Assembly (NCBI GenBank): GCA_903844735.1
Contig: CAIMUX010000073.1
Span: 1 to 64,000, forward strand
Origin: Candidatus Eiseniibacteriota bacterium
Lineage (GTDB): Bacteria; Eisenbacteria; RBG-16-71-46; CAIMUX01
Length of the DNA stretch: 64,000 nucleotides
Reading direction: 5' to 3'
A program made the translations under genes and the position numbers. Of the stretch, positions 21,616 through 33,503 are shown piece by piece (the first letter of the stretch is position 1; each line of letters opens with the position of its first letter). Below the pieces are notes generated by a model. The model saw nothing but the letters and a program-made list of their open reading frames with translations, made no database searches and was not told where the DNA came from.

Positions 21616-23130
21616 TTACTTCCGGGACCACGGCGCAGCCGGGTTCGCGGATTCCAGAGGTGACTCTCCCCCGACTCCCACCGGCACATCGAGAATGCCA
21701 TTCACCCCGCCAAAACCATCTTCCTCGTAGCGCGACGCCCCAGGTGGCTTCACCCAGGCGCCATCAACGACAAACGCATACCGCCACGCCCCCGGTGGCA
21801 CAGCAATGACACACTCCCATGTGCCATCCGGAGCCGGCCCCCGCAAGGGCGTGCGAGCCGGATCCCAGCCGTTGAACCCTCCGACCACGGACACCCCAGT
21901 CGCAGTCGGTGCTCGCACGCGCAAGCGCACGCCAAGGGCCGTGTCCCCATGGAGGGGCAGATCCGCCACCGCACCCAACGAGAAGACGGTGGGCGCGAGT
22001 GGATCAGGAGCAGACGTGGCCCATCCATATCCGGAAAGCCGCCGGGTCCGGCCGGCGGCAAGCGAAATGCGCAGGCCCGCGGTGACCCGCGCCTGATCGA
22101 AAGCGAGCGCGGCGACATTGGACGACTGGTGCGTGACCGAGTAGAGCACAAAACCCCGCACCCGACCGCGGACGCGGCGGGTCGCCTCCAATTCCAACTG
22201 CCATGTCCGGTCTGCCCGCGTGTCGCCGGCCGTGCTCCCCTGGGAGCCAGCCCGCGTATCGCCGCTTCGCACCAGGTAGACCGGGTAGCGGTCGTAGCGG
22301 CGGGCAGCAAACGCAGCCACGGCCCGCAGACCGAACCCATGGGCCGCCTCCAACGAGCTTCTGAGCTCGATGCCGGGACCGTCGTAGCCGAGCGCCGGGT
22401 CGTTCGATCGGTTGCGCCGCCACGTCGCGGACGCGGCCAGGGCCGCGCCCTCTCCACGGTCGTGGGCCAAGATGAGCGCCACGTCGGTCCGTTCATCCTC
22501 CTGCCTCTGGGCAGTGCCGATCTGGGTACCCGTGCCGGCAATGGACCTCGAGATGTCACGACCCGGATAAAACGGCCGCGAGTATCCTCCCTCGACAGCG
22601 GTCGACCAGGGGCCGCCGAGCACGCGCAACACGCGGGCCGAGCACTCGGGCATGTCGAGGTCGAACGCGGGCACCCCCTCGCGCCGAAACCGCCTGAAAG
22701 AACCGGCCGCCTCCACCGCGGTGCGCGCGCCGGAGAACATCCGGTACCGCAAGCGCCCGAGCAGATCCCGGTCTGTCGCGCCGACCGCTGCTTCATACCC
22801 GGTCATCGCCGCTTCCACGTCGACATCCAGCCGGTCGCCGCCATCGTGTGTGAGAAGACCGGCGAACTGTCCGGTCGCCCGCGCATGTCCCGAGATAAGC
22901 CGCGAGGCGACAGGAGTGGTGATCCCCGACCCCTCAGGGTCAACCAGCACCTCGTCATCGTGCCCGGCGTGGGCTTCCAAGGTGAATCCACCCGACGGTT
23001 CCAGGGCGGAGACCGCGGTCACCCGACCGGCGCAGAGCAGAGCAAGCGCCATCCATGGAACGGACAGGCACGCACACGCCGACATCCCGCTCCGATCGAA
23101 AGCGCGGGGCCTTGACCCACAACCGCCCAT
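21616..23130 (-). CDS. Outer-membrane-like protein with C-terminal glycogen-binding-type (AMPK1-CBM/CBM48) domain
   Basis: About 504 residues when started at ATG 23130, which overlaps the upstream stop by one base (TGATG); a TTG one codon earlier is also possible. A signal-peptide-like segment WMALALLCAGRVTA is near the N-terminus. Most of the protein alternates polar and hydrophobic residues (for example ELEATRRVRGRVRGFVLYSV), as in outer-membrane beta-barrels. The last 90 residues form an early-set glycogen-binding domain: VVGGFNGWDPARTPLRGPAP, then WRYAFVVDGAWV. The preceding gene ends in the same kind of domain. A role in binding or sensing a glucan or other cell-envelope polymer is inferred. 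Confidence 0.75.
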   Translation of the reverse strand: MGGCGSRPRAFDRSGMSACACLSVPWMALALLCAGRVTAVSALEPSGGFTLEAHAGHDDEVLVDPEGSGITTPVASRLISGHARATGQFAGLLTHDGGDRLDVDVEAAMTGYEAAVGATDRDLLGRLRYRMFSGARTAVEAAGSFRRFRREGVPAFDLDMPECSARVLRVLGGPWSTAVEGGYSRPFYPGRDISRSIAGTGTQIGTAQRQEDERTDVALILAHDRGEGAALAASATWRRNRSNDPALGYDGPGIELRSSLEAAHGFGLRAVAAFAARRYDRYPVYLVRSGDTRAGSQGSTAGDTRADRTWQLELEATRRVRGRVRGFVLYSVTHQSSNVAALAFDQARVTAGLRISLAAGRTRRLSGYGWATSAPDPLAPTVFSLGAVADLPLHGDTALGVRLRVRAPTATGVSVVGGFNGWDPARTPLRGPAPDGTWECVIAVPPGAWRYAFVVDGAWVKPPGASRYEEDGFGGVNGILDVPVGVGGESPLESANPAAPWSRK

Positions 23131-23879
23131 CAAAGAAGCAGCACGGCGTTCATGTGGCCGAAACCGTCATCGACGCGTTGCGAGGCGTCCGGATCGCTCT
23201 CCCACCTGCCATCCACCACGAACATGTACTCGTGGCGACCCGGCGGCAGCTCCACCGAGACTTCCCAGGTGCCGTCACCGGCCGGTCGCAAGGGCGTGCG
23301 GCAAACCGCCCAGCCGTTGAAGCTCCCCACGAGGCAAACCTGGTGCGCAGGGCCCGCGGCAAAGCTGAATTCCCAGCGGATCGGCCCGGAAGAAGATGTG
23401 GCTATCTCGACGGGCGCGGCGGGCAACACGCGGGGCTCGTCCACGACGACCCGCACCACCAGAAGAACCACGGCCGCGAGAGCCAGCGCGGCGGGGACCC
23501 AGGCGAAGTCCTTCGGGCGACCCGAGGAGCGGGACGGGGACTCGATCGGTGACACCTTCGCAACGGATAGAAACCGCCGCCACCACGACGGGCGACCGCG
23601 CCGTGCCGTCCATTCTCCGCGCGCCGCATCCACCCGTACCGCGGCTGCAATCGCCGCGGCGAGTTCCGGCGGAGCCACGGAACGCGTCTCCCCCAACCAA
23701 CCCTCCATCCCGCGGAGTGCTTCCATGCGACGACGCAGCAGGGGATCCCCGACCAACCGTCGATTGAACGCCACGGTCTCGGCGGGGCCCATCGACCCAT
23801 CCAGCCAGAAATGGAGATCGCCCAGCCCACCCAGCCCGCCCTGCTCCGCGTCGCCGTGATCGATTTCCTCGTCACGCAT
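23130..23879 (-). CDS. Anti-sigma-factor-like membrane protein with C-terminal glycogen-binding-type domain
   Basis: 249 residues from ATG 23879, with GGAG eight bases upstream. The N-terminal third (DLHFWLDGSMGPAETVAFNR) resembles the cytoplasmic part of anti-sigma proteins. One membrane segment (FAWVPAALALAAVVLLVV) is near residue 125. The outer part is an early-set domain as in AMPK-beta/CBM48: VCLVGSFNGWAVCRTPLRPA, then HEYMFVVDGRWESDP. The gene directly follows an ECF sigma factor and overlaps the next gene, so it is placed as the cognate anti-sigma factor whose outside domain could sense a carbohydrate. I see no classical zinc HCC motif. The anti-sigma function is inferred from layout. 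Confidence 0.72.
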   Translation of the reverse strand: MRDEEIDHGDAEQGGLGGLGDLHFWLDGSMGPAETVAFNRRLVGDPLLRRRMEALRGMEGWLGETRSVAPPELAAAIAAAVRVDAARGEWTARRGRPSWWRRFLSVAKVSPIESPSRSSGRPKDFAWVPAALALAAVVLLVVRVVVDEPRVLPAAPVEIATSSSGPIRWEFSFAAGPAHQVCLVGSFNGWAVCRTPLRPAGDGTWEVSVELPPGRHEYMFVVDGRWESDPDASQRVDDGFGHMNAVLLL

Positions 23880-23968
23880 GGTCTCGTCTCCTGTCTCGAC
23901 GCCCCCAGCGCAATGGCTGGTTCTCGATCTCTTCATCGTCTCGCTTCGTTCCGCTTCGCCCGCCTTCG

Positions 23969-24610
23969 TCAGACATCGTGCCCTAGACGGCGAAGCGACG
24001 CCAGAATGGACTCGCGCGCACGGTGCACCCGCACTTTGGCGTTCGCCGCCGAGATCCCCAGCACCGAACCGATCTCCGCCGGGCCCAGACCCTCCTGGTG
24101 CCGTAAGAGGAAGGCCGTCCGGTGGGCTGGATCAAGCCCGTCGAGAGCTCGGGCGAAGGCGTGGGACAGTTCTTTCTCTTCGAGGCGGCCGTCGGGGCCG
24201 GGCTCGGCCGAAACCACCGCGCGCCCCGCCATCTCCTCCGCCTCGATGCTCGTCTCCACGCGACGCCGACGCTCCCCGCTGCTTCCGCGGTGATCGAGGC
24301 AGAGGTTCCACGCGATGCGGAAGAGCCAGGTCGAGAACCGAGCCTCTCCGCGAAACACCGCCAGACCCCTCCAGGCGCGCAGGAACGCGTCCTGGGTCAG
24401 CTCCCGCGCGGCTTCCGTCTCGCCGACCCAACGCGACACCAGGCCGAAGACGGAGTCCTGATGCCTCAGGACCAGAAGGTCAAACGCCCCAAGATCGCCT
24501 TCGCGGGCACGCCGCACCAGCGTGGAATCGTCGTCCGGCCGCGGACTGCTCGCCCCAGGCGGGGAATCCAAAACGCCCTCCTGCTCGATCACCCCCCCGC
24601 CAACCAACAA
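23969..24610 (-). CDS. ECF-type RNA polymerase sigma factor (sigma-70 family)
   Basis: 213 residues. Region 2 is clear (DAFLRAWRGLAVFRGEARFS, then TWLFRIAWNLCLDH) and region 4 carries the helix-turn-helix LGPAEIGSVLGISAANAKVR. There is no region 1 or 3, as expected for extracytoplasmic-function sigma factors. It is followed after 89 bp by a membrane protein in the position of an anti-sigma factor. The first 20-25 residues are poorly conserved and a start further in is possible. Target promoters are unknown; auto-regulation from the region between 24611 and 24864 would be usual for such units. Confidence 0.93.
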   Translation of the reverse strand: MLVGGGVIEQEGVLDSPPGASSPRPDDDSTLVRRAREGDLGAFDLLVLRHQDSVFGLVSRWVGETEAARELTQDAFLRAWRGLAVFRGEARFSTWLFRIAWNLCLDHRGSSGERRRRVETSIEAEEMAGRAVVSAEPGPDGRLEEKELSHAFARALDGLDPAHRTAFLLRHQEGLGPAEIGSVLGISAANAKVRVHRARESILASLRRLGHDV

Positions 24611-24864: not shown

Positions 24865-25620
24865 ATGGAACTGCGCAGAGCGACGGCAGGAGCGGCGACG
24901 GTCTTGCTCATCGCCCTGGCCCTGACAGGCTGCGGGCACGACGGGGCGGGACAAACGACCGATCCGCTCGGAACAAACAACGAGGCCTCCAGCGCTCTCG
25001 GGCTCGGGAGCGTGGCCGTCACACTGAAGGTGGCGGCTTGCGCCGGATCGGACACCACCCACCCGGGTTGGGCACACGACGCAGGCGTGGCCCGGTTGGA
25101 CCTCACGTTCGACACAATTCGCATCTACCCAGCACCGTGCAATCCTGACAGCGCGCGGTATGTCGAGATCCTCACCGATCCGATCACGGTCGATGTCGTT
25201 GCGCTCGGCACGGAGCTGAGTCGGCTCATCGGCGCTGCGGCGGTGCCCGCCGGCAACTACGCACGCATCGCGCTGCGCGTGATCGCAGCGAGCGCGCTGA
25301 CCGACTCCGGCGCCACGGTCCCGGTAACCGTGGCCTCGCGCGACAGCCTCCTGCGCATCATGTCGCGCTTCACCGTGGTCGAGGGACAGCAAACCGTGAT
25401 CCCGGTGGTCATCGACCTCGACCGCTCCGTGCGCGAGGTTCCGCCGGGTAGCGGCAACCTGGTGCTGAGGCCGGTGCTGTTCGGTGGTGGTCCGGGTGGT
25501 CCAGGTGGTCCAGGCGGTCCGGGTGGTCCAGGCGGTCCGGGTGGTCCAGGCGGTCCGGGTGGTCCAGGCGGTCCGGGTGGTCCAGGTGGCGGCCCCGGAT
25601 GTGGACGCGGACGACCTTGA
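24865..25620 (+). CDS. DUF4382-like lipoprotein with collagen-like Gly-Gly-Pro tail
   Basis: 251 residues. A lipoprotein signal is at the N-terminus: VLLIALALTGC, with the lipobox Cys near residue 23. The core has segments ARLDLTFDTIRIYP, DVVALGTELSRLIG and AAVPAGNYARIALRV, a pattern like DUF4382 proteins. From about residue 207 the chain is Gly-Gly-Pro repeated about a dozen times, encoded at 25483-25599, ending GGGPGCGRGRP. GGA-rich sequence (gggaggatctaacg) precedes the ATG. It is divergent from the ECF sigma gene. Function is unknown; the tail could extend from the cell surface or be a linker. Confidence 0.78.
   Translation: MELRRATAGAATVLLIALALTGCGHDGAGQTTDPLGTNNEASSALGLGSVAVTLKVAACAGSDTTHPGWAHDAGVARLDLTFDTIRIYPAPCNPDSARYVEILTDPITVDVVALGTELSRLIGAAAVPAGNYARIALRVIAASALTDSGATVPVTVASRDSLLRIMSRFTVVEGQQTVIPVVIDLDRSVREVPPGSGNLVLRPVLFGGGPGGPGGPGGPGGPGGPGGPGGPGGPGGPGGPGGGPGCGRGRP
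25483..25599 (+). repeat. 18-bp tandem repeat encoding Gly-Gly-Pro tail
   Basis: Units of ggtggtccaggcggtccg (two GGP triplets) are repeated in tandem about four times and flanked by variant triplets. The array is in frame with the lipoprotein and has alternating synonymous Gly and Pro codons in an 18-bp pattern, which indicates expansion by duplication of an 18-mer. Confidence 0.9.
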
Positions 25621-27355: not shown

Positions 27356-27467
27356 TACGTCTGGACCAATCTACGAGGGCGCCGAGGGCTCCGCAGCCTA
27401 AGCGCCCGGCTCGACCGGTTCGCTTCGGTTTCGCGGCGAACAACACACTCCAAGGGGGAGGCTCTCG

Positions 27468-29492
27468 ATGCGGATCGCCTGGAAGTTCGTGCTTGTTTTT
27501 GCCCTCCTGGCGCTCGGCGCGGCGGCCCCTGGTTTCGCCGGCGTTCCCAGGGTCATCTTTGCGGACGAGTTCGGATGGGCTAGCTGACCCTACTGCCCGA
27601 CAGCGCGGTGCGCGCTGGGAATGATGAACGATGAGTACCCAAACTCCTTCCTGCACGTCGACAGCCACATCAATGGCGATCCGTTCCAGATCCCGGAGAC
27701 CGCGGCCCGCGCGAACTGGTACGAGGTAAACAGCGGCCCGTGGACCATCTTCGACGGCGAGATGCCCGGGGCGATCGGCGCCTGGGAGACGTGTGCGGAG
27801 CAATATGCATGGTATGACTCCATCTATACGGCCCGGTGGGATGCGACAGGGGGACTCGCGCCTGTCAGCATCGAAGGCCTCTACTCCATCAACGGCGATC
27901 AGTTGACGATCGATGCCACCTACCATTTGGAAGACCCGGTGACACTGACCGACATCCGAGCCACGTTCTTCCTCGCTGAAAGCGACCTGTACTACAGTTC
28001 GACCCGCACGTTCGACCACGTCACCCGGAAGATCTACAGCCAGAACATCACACTGACCAACGTCGGGGACTCGATCGCGGTCCAGGCCACGCTCACCCTC
28101 AACCCCGCGTGGAATCCTGCCAACTTCGAGGTGATCGCCATCGTGCAGCAAGCCTCCGGAACCAAGGAAGTCTACCAGGCGGCCGCACTGCCCTTCCTCT
28201 TCGACTACCGGATGTCCTTCGCTCCGCTGCTGAAGTCCGTACCGGACGGCAGCGGTGAGGCCCTGTTCGCCGGACGTGTCACGAACGTGAGCGCTCTGGC
28301 CGACACGCTCACGCTCTCCATGGACACCGGCTTCGGCTGGCCGGTCGCCTTCCAGGTGGGAAGCGATCCGACTTGGTACGCCGACGCGCGGGCTTTCCCC
28401 CTCGCCGCCGGCGACTCAGCCGCGATCACGGTCAAGATCACGACCGACGACGTGAAGCGGATCGGCGTAGGGAACTTCCAATGCCAATCTGCCGTGACCG
28501 AGCGCCTCGGGTCGGTGCAGCTCCAGGTCTACAACAAGGCATACTCCATCCTCTTCGTGGATGATGACGGAATCAACTCCGACGAAACGCCATTCATAAC
28601 GGCCTTTTCCCAGCTCGGCTATCTCTACAAGGACTGGGACGTCCGCAACGACCACGCCGGCATCACCCCGACATCAAGCAACATGGCGGGATTCGACGTG
28701 GTCGTCTGGCAAACCGGATACTCCACGACGGCCATCGGCACCGGCGCCCAAGGCGCCCTCATGGCCTATCTCGACACCGGCGGCAACCTCTACATGAGCA
28801 ATATGGACCTGACGACCACCGTCTATCCGCCGAACGTCTTTGCGGTGAACTACCTAGGGATCTTCAGCCGGACACTCAACGTCAAGGGGTACACTGCGAT
28901 AGGCGTGCCGGGAGATCCAATCACCTCCGGAATGTCGATCCCGCTGACTTTCTCGAGCGAGATCTTCAACAAGGTCGACAACATCGCCCCGACGGCCACG
29001 GCTCATACCATCTTTCGCAACGAGAACGGCTGTTCCAACGCGCTGGCGAATCAGCTCGCCGGAGGCGGCCGGGTCGTCTTCAACACCATCGTCCAGGCGG
29101 CGTTCAGCACGAGCAGCGCCGATCCGAACAACAACGAGACGGTCATCGAGAGGACAATCGTCTGGCTGACAGGCCAGGACGTGACGAGCACGCCGGAAGG
29201 GCCGGTCGTCGTCTCTCGTCTTACGGTCGCGCCGAATCCGTTTGCCGGAAGCACCGACCTGAAGTTCAGCCTCTCCCCCGGGGCCTCCGCAGGGGCGGTG
29301 CGGCTAACCATGGTCGACGTGACGGGCCGACGGGTGCGCACGCTGCTGGACGGCCGGATGACGCCGGGGACGCAGCTCTTGCGCTGGAACGGCGCGGATG
29401 ATCTCGGTCGGGCGCTGCCCTCCGGCATCTACTTCACGAGGCTGCAGACGGTCGAGGGCACGAAGACCCAGAAAGTCATTCTGACTCGATAA
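27468..29492 (+). CDS. Probable selenoprotein: exported Omp28-like thioredoxin-fold protein with in-frame TGA (Sec40) and FlgD-like C-terminal domain
   Basis: 674 residues if the TGA at 27585-27587 is read as selenocysteine. ATG 27468 has GGGGGAGG seven bases upstream and opens a signal peptide (WKFVLVFALLALGAAAPGFA). The mature start reads VIFADEFGWAS-TGA-PYCPTA, so the TGA takes the place of the first Cys of a CPYC-type redox motif, in the position where Omp28-like proteins have WCxxC. Downstream, DSHINGDPFQIPETAARANW and GPWTIFDGE fit the thioredoxin-like domain. The middle (SILFVDDDGINSDE, then FDVVVWQTGY) looks like a ThuA/amidotransferase-like region. The end (APNPFAGSTDLKFSL, then LPSGIYFTRLQT) is a FlgD/T9SS-type C-terminal domain. 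A standard gene caller would start at 27621 and lose the signal peptide and active site. Alternative: a nonsense mutation or a base error. Confidence 0.8.
27585..27620 (+). promoter_or_regulatory. SECIS-like hairpin immediately after the in-frame TGA
   Basis: CAGCGC (27601-27606) pairs perfectly with GCGCTG (27612-27617) around a five-base loop GGTGC. The first loop base lies 20 nt after the TGA, close to the spacing of the E. coli fdhF SECIS, and the loop begins with GG followed by U, as SelB-binding loops often do. The outer CC and GG can extend the stem past a small bulge. All of it is inside the coding frame, as in bacterial SECIS elements. Confidence 0.6.
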
Positions 29493-32348: not shown

Positions 32349-33503
32349 TCAGTCGTTCGCCTTCTTCGCCACAGCCTTCTCATTCACTTTGGCGTCGGCC
32401 GTAATTCGCGACAAGACTTCGAGCTGGATTCCATCAGAGAGGCCCGGTTTGGACTTCCCGTCGTTCGAACTTCCGGGGCGCTGTCGCAACCTCAACGTAC
32501 CTCTTGTCCCCTTCAAACCTGAGCCGGCTCTAGTGGATGGACAGGACACAGTCGCGCCGATCGAGAATTCCCGGCTCCGGGGCCGTCGCCGCCGGAAACG
32601 GACGGGACTTCGGAAGGGACGGCCCGAACTAGAGAAGAACGACCGTGCGTCGGCTCGCATGCGGACCCCCGGGCGCACGCCTGACGCCGCCGGGACGTCC
32701 GTCCCCAGGCTCAGCAACGTCATCTGGTTGGTCGTGCCGCGCCAGTTCCATGCGATCCCATTCGGCGACGTCGCCACTTCCCCGGTCCCCGCCGGCGCGA
32801 AGAGCGTGCCCGAGATGCTCACCAGAGAGGTCATTCCGACTTGAGACAGAGTGCCGACCATTACCCACGTGGCCGCTCTGCCTGTGCTTCGGAAGAGGTC
32901 GCCGGTTGCGGTCAGAACGTAGAGCGCGCCCAAGTGGTCGCAGAGCTTGACCGCGTCGGAAACCGCCACCGCGCCCTTCCGGTCCAGCTTGCTCCGCCGT
33001 TCGCACTCCCGAAGATCTCGCCCGTCCTGTCCAGGGCATAGAGCGTCAGACCATCCCCGCTCGGAACCAGGGCCACGAAGTTCGAGCCGATCAGGCAGGC
33101 CAGTGTCGCGAACGTTTCCCCCTGATCCGTGGAGCGGTACACAATCCCGCTCGCGCTCGCCAGGTAGAGGTCCGAAGTCGAGACGCCCACCGCAATCGCC
33201 ATGACATCGCCCGCAGGAAGGGCTGCGCGGACGGTCCGGGTCGCGCCGGGCAAGCGACTCACGGGAGTCGCCATGCTTGCCTGCCTCGCACGGGTCCAGC
33301 GGATCACGCGGGTCGCCCGGGTTGCCCGTTTCGCGCGTATCACGCCGTTGGCCCGGGTCCCCACGAGTCCGCGGGCGAGGTTTTCCTGCTCCGTTCTCAT
33401 CGCCCCACCACCTTCCGTGATCCGACTCCGAAATGCGCTGTCCGGAATCGTGCGCCGGGGTTCTCCCGCGCCACCGCAGGGCCGTGAACTTCAGGTGCGA
33501 CAA
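32349..33503 (-). pseudogene. Frameshifted beta-propeller (BNR-type) protein remnant
   Basis: Minus-strand reading shows propeller blades split across two frames. One frame (about 33240 to 32975) gives TSDLYLASASGIVYRSTDQG and LTLYALDRTGEIFGSANGGA; the other (about 32970 to 32700) gives LYVLTATGDLFRSTG and GTGEVATSPNGIAWNWRG. The jump is near 32965-32985 and would be healed by one extra base after ACCGG. The part before the blades (about 33370-33270), in the second frame, shows degraded Gly-X-Y triplets. Neither frame is open over the whole length with sensible composition. It may be a true pseudogene or an assembly error; the original was probably a surface or secreted protein. Confidence 0.6.

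Follow-up and report, generated by a model that had tools for sequence, protein, structure and literature searches.

The window, the stretch of 64,000 nucleotides analysed here, most probably encodes at 27468-29492 an exported redox protein containing selenocysteine (Sec), a reading to which we assign a probability of about 0.9. As the earlier note on this DNA had described, one reading frame opens with ATG at 27468, meets TGA in the residue context FGWAS-U-PYC, and continues for 634 further codons to a TAA stop at 29490-29492. The sequence AAGGGGGAGG stands ahead of the ATG and a hydrophobic leader follows it, in agreement with the Shine-Dalgarno site and signal peptide that the same note had placed there. 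Its expectation that standard annotation would begin at 27621 and lose the active site also proved correct, the standard six-frame ORF list returning only 27621-29492, a 623-aa ORF in which the active site is missing. When the in-frame TGAs of the whole window were scanned for U-x-x-C or C-x-x-U contexts, the one at 27585 had by far the longest downstream frame, with coding-like third-base composition on both sides, and no second TGA was comparably credible. Rfam gave no matches on the window and PHROGs gave none, while a scan for consensus promoters and terminators yielded nothing useful. The features of the gene and its product are collected in Table 1.

Table 1. Coordinates of the predicted selenoprotein gene and its features in the window
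Feature	Position	Strand	Basis and remarks
Complete gene, 674 aa, TGA predicted to be read as Sec	27468..29492	+	Single open frame interrupted by one TGA
Shine-Dalgarno region, AAGGGGGAGG, 5' of ATG	27452..27461	+	Sequence
Predicted N-terminal signal peptide, ~residues 1-24, ...APGFA/G	27468..27539	+	From sequence; hydrophobic N-terminus kept in relatives
Sec-bearing thioredoxin-like + beta-sandwich (Omp28/HBP35-like) domain, residues 25-241	27540..28190	+	AF2, Foldseek, NF045500
Predicted Sec codon TGA (Sec40), U-P-Y-C motif	27585..27587	+	Codon 40; resolving Cys43 at 27594-27596
Bacterial SECIS-like hairpin	27596..27619	+	Core stem GCGCG-GUG-CGCGC 27603-27615; loop GUG 27608-27610
Ig-like beta domain, ~residues 245-356	28200..28535	+	AF2 model; boundaries approximate
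Alpha/beta module, ~residues 357-571	28536..29180	+	AF2; common to other large proteins
C-terminal FlgD_ig / probable T9SS type A sorting domain, residues 583-674	29214..29489	+	TIGR04183, PF13860

AlphaFold2, supplied with the family alignment, modelled the whole chain with a pLDDT of 87 and the Sec domain alone with 95.9, and the latter is predicted to be a thioredoxin-like fold bearing U-x-x-C. In Foldseek, the best match of this domain was HBP35 (5y1a, TMq 0.81), followed by 2axo (DUF1223) and 2r2c (Omp28), a result that bears out the proposal of an Omp28-like thioredoxin domain around the TGA; the sequence profile PF11551 stayed below its gathering score (20.4 vs 34.9). The hydrophobic N-terminal leader is kept in relatives, consistent with the export already suggested for the protein. 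Matches to the alpha/beta module in other genomes are confined to residues ~352-572, where the module stands alone in other large proteins.

Among proteins of solved structure, HBP35 of P. gingivalis shares with the window protein the fold of the Sec domain and the combination of a thioredoxin motif with a type IX secretion system (T9SS) C-terminal domain, but it has Cys instead of Sec, is only 15% identical, and its solved chain of 314 residues contains no extra modules. HBP35 is a surface protein whose thioredoxin activity needs both active-site cysteines (PMC2907840), and it is a T9SS cargo (PMC3120885). Omp28 of the same species (2r2c; PF11551, NF033782) has the domain fold and a weak sequence match in common with the window protein, whereas it is a lipoprotein without Sec, and NF033782 gives the window protein only 14.7 of the 150 bits required. 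DUF1223 presents a similar two-part fold over the domain (TMq 0.61), but has neither Sec nor a T9SS tail, and its function is unknown.

In 2008, the Global Ocean Sampling study described Omp28-related selenoproteins as "hypothetical protein GOS_C" (PMC2398784), and NCBIfam model NF045500, "Omp28_seleno", which represents this same family, is listed in Table 1 of PMC13188914. Like these, the window protein has a thioredoxin-like/Omp28 domain with U-x-x-C, a predicted Sec from TGA and a SECIS-like hairpin, and it could be a plain member of that family with nothing new about it, an option that we consider doubtful, though it is the strongest of the alternatives. No curated model fits it better than NF045500 (E 2.8e-18), which also matches each of the 26 aligned relatives. 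Against this, the score is 66.5 bits where the cut-off is 200, the match spans only profile positions 39-265 of 377, and not one of 385 genomes has a protein above the cut-off, nor does either genome of one further phylum (2 genomes). The window protein is also 674 aa long, compared with the 377 positions of the model, and its C-terminal half is unrelated: in genomes that match there, positions 266-377 correspond to TSP3/dockerin-like repeats, which are absent from the window protein and replaced by the Ig domain, the alpha/beta module and the T9SS tail. We therefore read the Sec-bearing domain as one of a known kind, and the branch and its architecture as lying outside the curated NF045500 model. 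The novelty first claimed for the protein thus holds for the divergent branch and the different C-terminal architecture, but not for an Omp28-related selenoprotein as such, this kind being known already. Our literature search found no paper on a selenoprotein with Omp28 by name and none on selenoproteins with type IX secretion, much subscription-only work lying outside its scope in both cases; it likewise found none on a selenoprotein with Krumholzibacteriota.

The C-terminus had been described as FlgD/T9SS-like, and both halves of this description find support in the profiles, with TIGR04183 above its cut-off (27.4 bits vs 23) and PF13860 (FlgD_ig) exactly at it (27.0 vs 27), while PF18962 remains below (17.6 vs 27). 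We regard the tail as a probable T9SS domain and not a certain one, because it resembles FlgD Ig domains too. A real selenoprotein that stays in the periplasm or bound to the outer membrane, its tail being an Ig domain of FlgD type that serves some other purpose, would fit the FlgD_ig score and the observation that, among PDB sequences, FlgD chains match the tail best. This is, however, rather unlikely in view of the TIGR04183 score, of a tail match to the PorU model in its C-terminal part, shared by dozens of the genome's proteins, of the presence in the same genome of SprA (467 bits) besides PorU itself (495.9 bits), and of the fold match to HBP35, a T9SS cargo. A T9SS route to the surface is therefore the likely one for the predicted selenoprotein.

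An N-terminal domain model found matches in 54 of 371 genomes, and by our own tally from the match listing 52 matches in 31 genomes contain exactly one in-frame TGA, with TAA also present in one match and TAG in none; because of this recurrence, the TGA within 27468-29492 is not there by chance. With the full-length protein as query against 99 genomes, we obtained about 12 near-full-length relatives from the same family and order (32-38% identity), nearly all with exactly one TGA, and their codon at this column is TGA or TGC. Short relatives of about 350 aa, consisting of the thioredoxin/Omp28 domain and the tail only, have Sec or Cys. The earlier note had proposed looking for Cys in place of the TGA among homologues, and every one of the 58 distinct alignable relatives has either Sec (31) or Cys (27) at the column and no other residue. 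Were the TGA a true stop, whether in a pseudogene or through a sequencing error, translation would be limited to the 623-aa ORF that starts at 27621, which is precisely what a standard gene caller yields. This is very improbable: a sequencing error can be rejected since 30 further distinct sequences from many genera have TGA in this column as well, and a pseudogene since the TGA alternates with Cys only and both the signal peptide and the reading frame ahead of it are conserved.

The window is part of contig 73 of a MAG of 5.4 Mb (95.77% complete). A search for selA, selB, selC and selD had been recommended, and this genome carries all four, namely selA (485 bits), selB (325 bits, an ORF of 714 aa), selD (368 bits) and tRNA-Sec (73 bits, anticodon TCA), albeit on contigs other than the window's and in a MAG with 4.99% contamination. 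Two outcomes that the earlier note had named as refuting, a genome lacking Sec machinery and homologues with neither Cys nor Sec at the site, thus did not occur. With relatives showing Cys and never Trp at the column, one TGA per gene and the Sec machinery in the genome, recoding of UGA as another amino acid (e.g. Trp, by a genetic-code change) or plain readthrough, for which the frame open across the TGA could be cited, is the least credible alternative and is rejected. The proposal of selenocysteine at the TGA is thus favoured by the machinery, the Sec/Cys column and the SECIS conservation described below, from which we infer its incorporation. Among 10 other genomes of the same family or order, 8 have selA above the cut-off, the two exceptions being 68% and 75% complete (G001 with none, G006 with a fragment); no selA was detected in either G049 or G012, and all the relatives examined in these two genomes are Cys forms. 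The product of selD (- strand, G000:C103:143022-143945) contains Sec too, in a CAG-U-ASK motif, which makes selD the second selenoprotein gene of this genome with a UGA for Sec, and one from a known family.

Bacterial SECIS elements have been modelled as hairpins with a loop of 3-9 nt, a G within its first two positions and a stem of 4-16 bp, placed 16-37 nt from the UGA and with an MFE <= -7.5 (PMC13188914). The hairpin previously noticed at a suitable distance from the TGA passes every one of these rules, having a GUG triloop, a 6-bp upper stem, an MFE of -12.5 kcal/mol and a position 20 nt past the UGA. In the 17 Sec genes that the clade contains, which encode proteins of only about one-third identity, most copies of the 13-nt core read GCCCG-GUG-CGGGC or GCGCG-GUG-CGCGC. 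When synonymous codons were randomised, 1.5 complete 5-bp stems were expected and at most 6 seen in 4000 trials, compared with 14 observed among the 17 genes, and a G in first loop position was expected in 7.0 and observed in all 17; the excess of stem pairs peaks at the SECIS offset (z 6.8, the next best being 3.4). The stem and the loop G are hence conserved far more strongly than the encoded protein alone would demand. Besides, pair 21-29 has changed from C-G to G-C in 5 sequences; in 4 of them GGG (Gly) has given way to GCG (Ala), and the wobble position of the Ala codon upstream has changed with it. RNAalifold alone gave a weak consensus (the three innermost pairs, -1.33 kcal/mol), and the stability of the window hairpin is ordinary for its protein sequence (z = -0.67), so that codon choice and one compensatory pair are mainly what argue for a SECIS element.

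A maximum-likelihood tree, built without canonical NF045500 (GOS_C) members, places 7 changes between Sec and Cys, at least 3 of them forced by well-supported branches, with weak support at many of the other forks. The window protein belongs to an order-level clade (97% SH-aLRT) of 17 Sec and 2 Cys rows, and because the Cys rows are nested among the Sec rows, Cys has probably replaced Sec there. Both Cys rows keep the stem but lack the loop G, because their Arg codon is CGC. At another locus (G007:C172:6051-10192), the long form is present in tandem in Sec and Cys versions, the Cys version retaining the stem but, with CGC in place of CGG, not the loop G. At G151:C186:34498-43936, at least 5 Omp28-like domain matches are clustered, some with one in-frame TGA and others with none, possibly representing tandem Sec and Cys paralogues. 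A second Sec subgroup (L054 and L055, on G006:C417 and G007:C183), with the motif ELGTATW-U-GYCP, lies among Cys relatives and has no GCCCGGUGCGGGC core.

We propose that the ribosome would meet UGA at codon 40, where the hairpin downstream would recruit SelB with Sec-tRNA; the inserted Sec would be the attacking residue of the thioredoxin-like U-x-x-C site, to be resolved by Cys43. The signal peptide would direct the protein to the periplasm, and the T9SS type A C-terminal domain would allow its passage through SprA across the outer membrane, after which PorU would cleave the tail and fix the protein on the surface. There the protein most likely acts as a thiol-disulfide oxidoreductase, by analogy with HBP35 in P. 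gingivalis. In this scheme the computations show the recoding signature, the Sec machinery, the conservation of the SECIS, the predicted folds of the domains and the presence of SprA and PorU, and from them we infer the surface location, the redox activity and the substrate.

More broadly, we lean slightly towards the view that many uncultured bacteria have selenoproteins that are exported by T9SS and attached to the cell surface, frequently several per genome and nearly all truncated in annotation, which would form an extracellular thiol redox system. A standard gene call loses the first 51 residues, including the signal peptide and the active site, and such proteins would therefore be catalogued as non-exported and of unknown function; the variant occurs in many uncultured bacteria, and gene callers would shorten its genes. 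The family would join selenocysteine and type IX secretion, a link absent from the literature searched. Repeated Sec/Cys exchange and paralogues lying side by side would make the family a natural test case for when the cost of Sec pays off. Its SECIS is so tightly encoded that the choice between Ala and Gly tracks base pairing.

Elsewhere in the window, a DUF4382 protein with a long Gly-Pro-Gly repeat tail at its end is encoded at 24865-25617 (+ strand), and ORFs with short-period repeats, seemingly collagen-like in one frame, occupy both strands at 32349-33503. On the - strand, the region 21616-24610 contains a gene for a Sigma-70 family factor and, after it, one whose product has a glycogen-binding (AMPK1_CBM/CBM48) domain, as well as a 505-aa ORF with a similar-looking stretch at its end.
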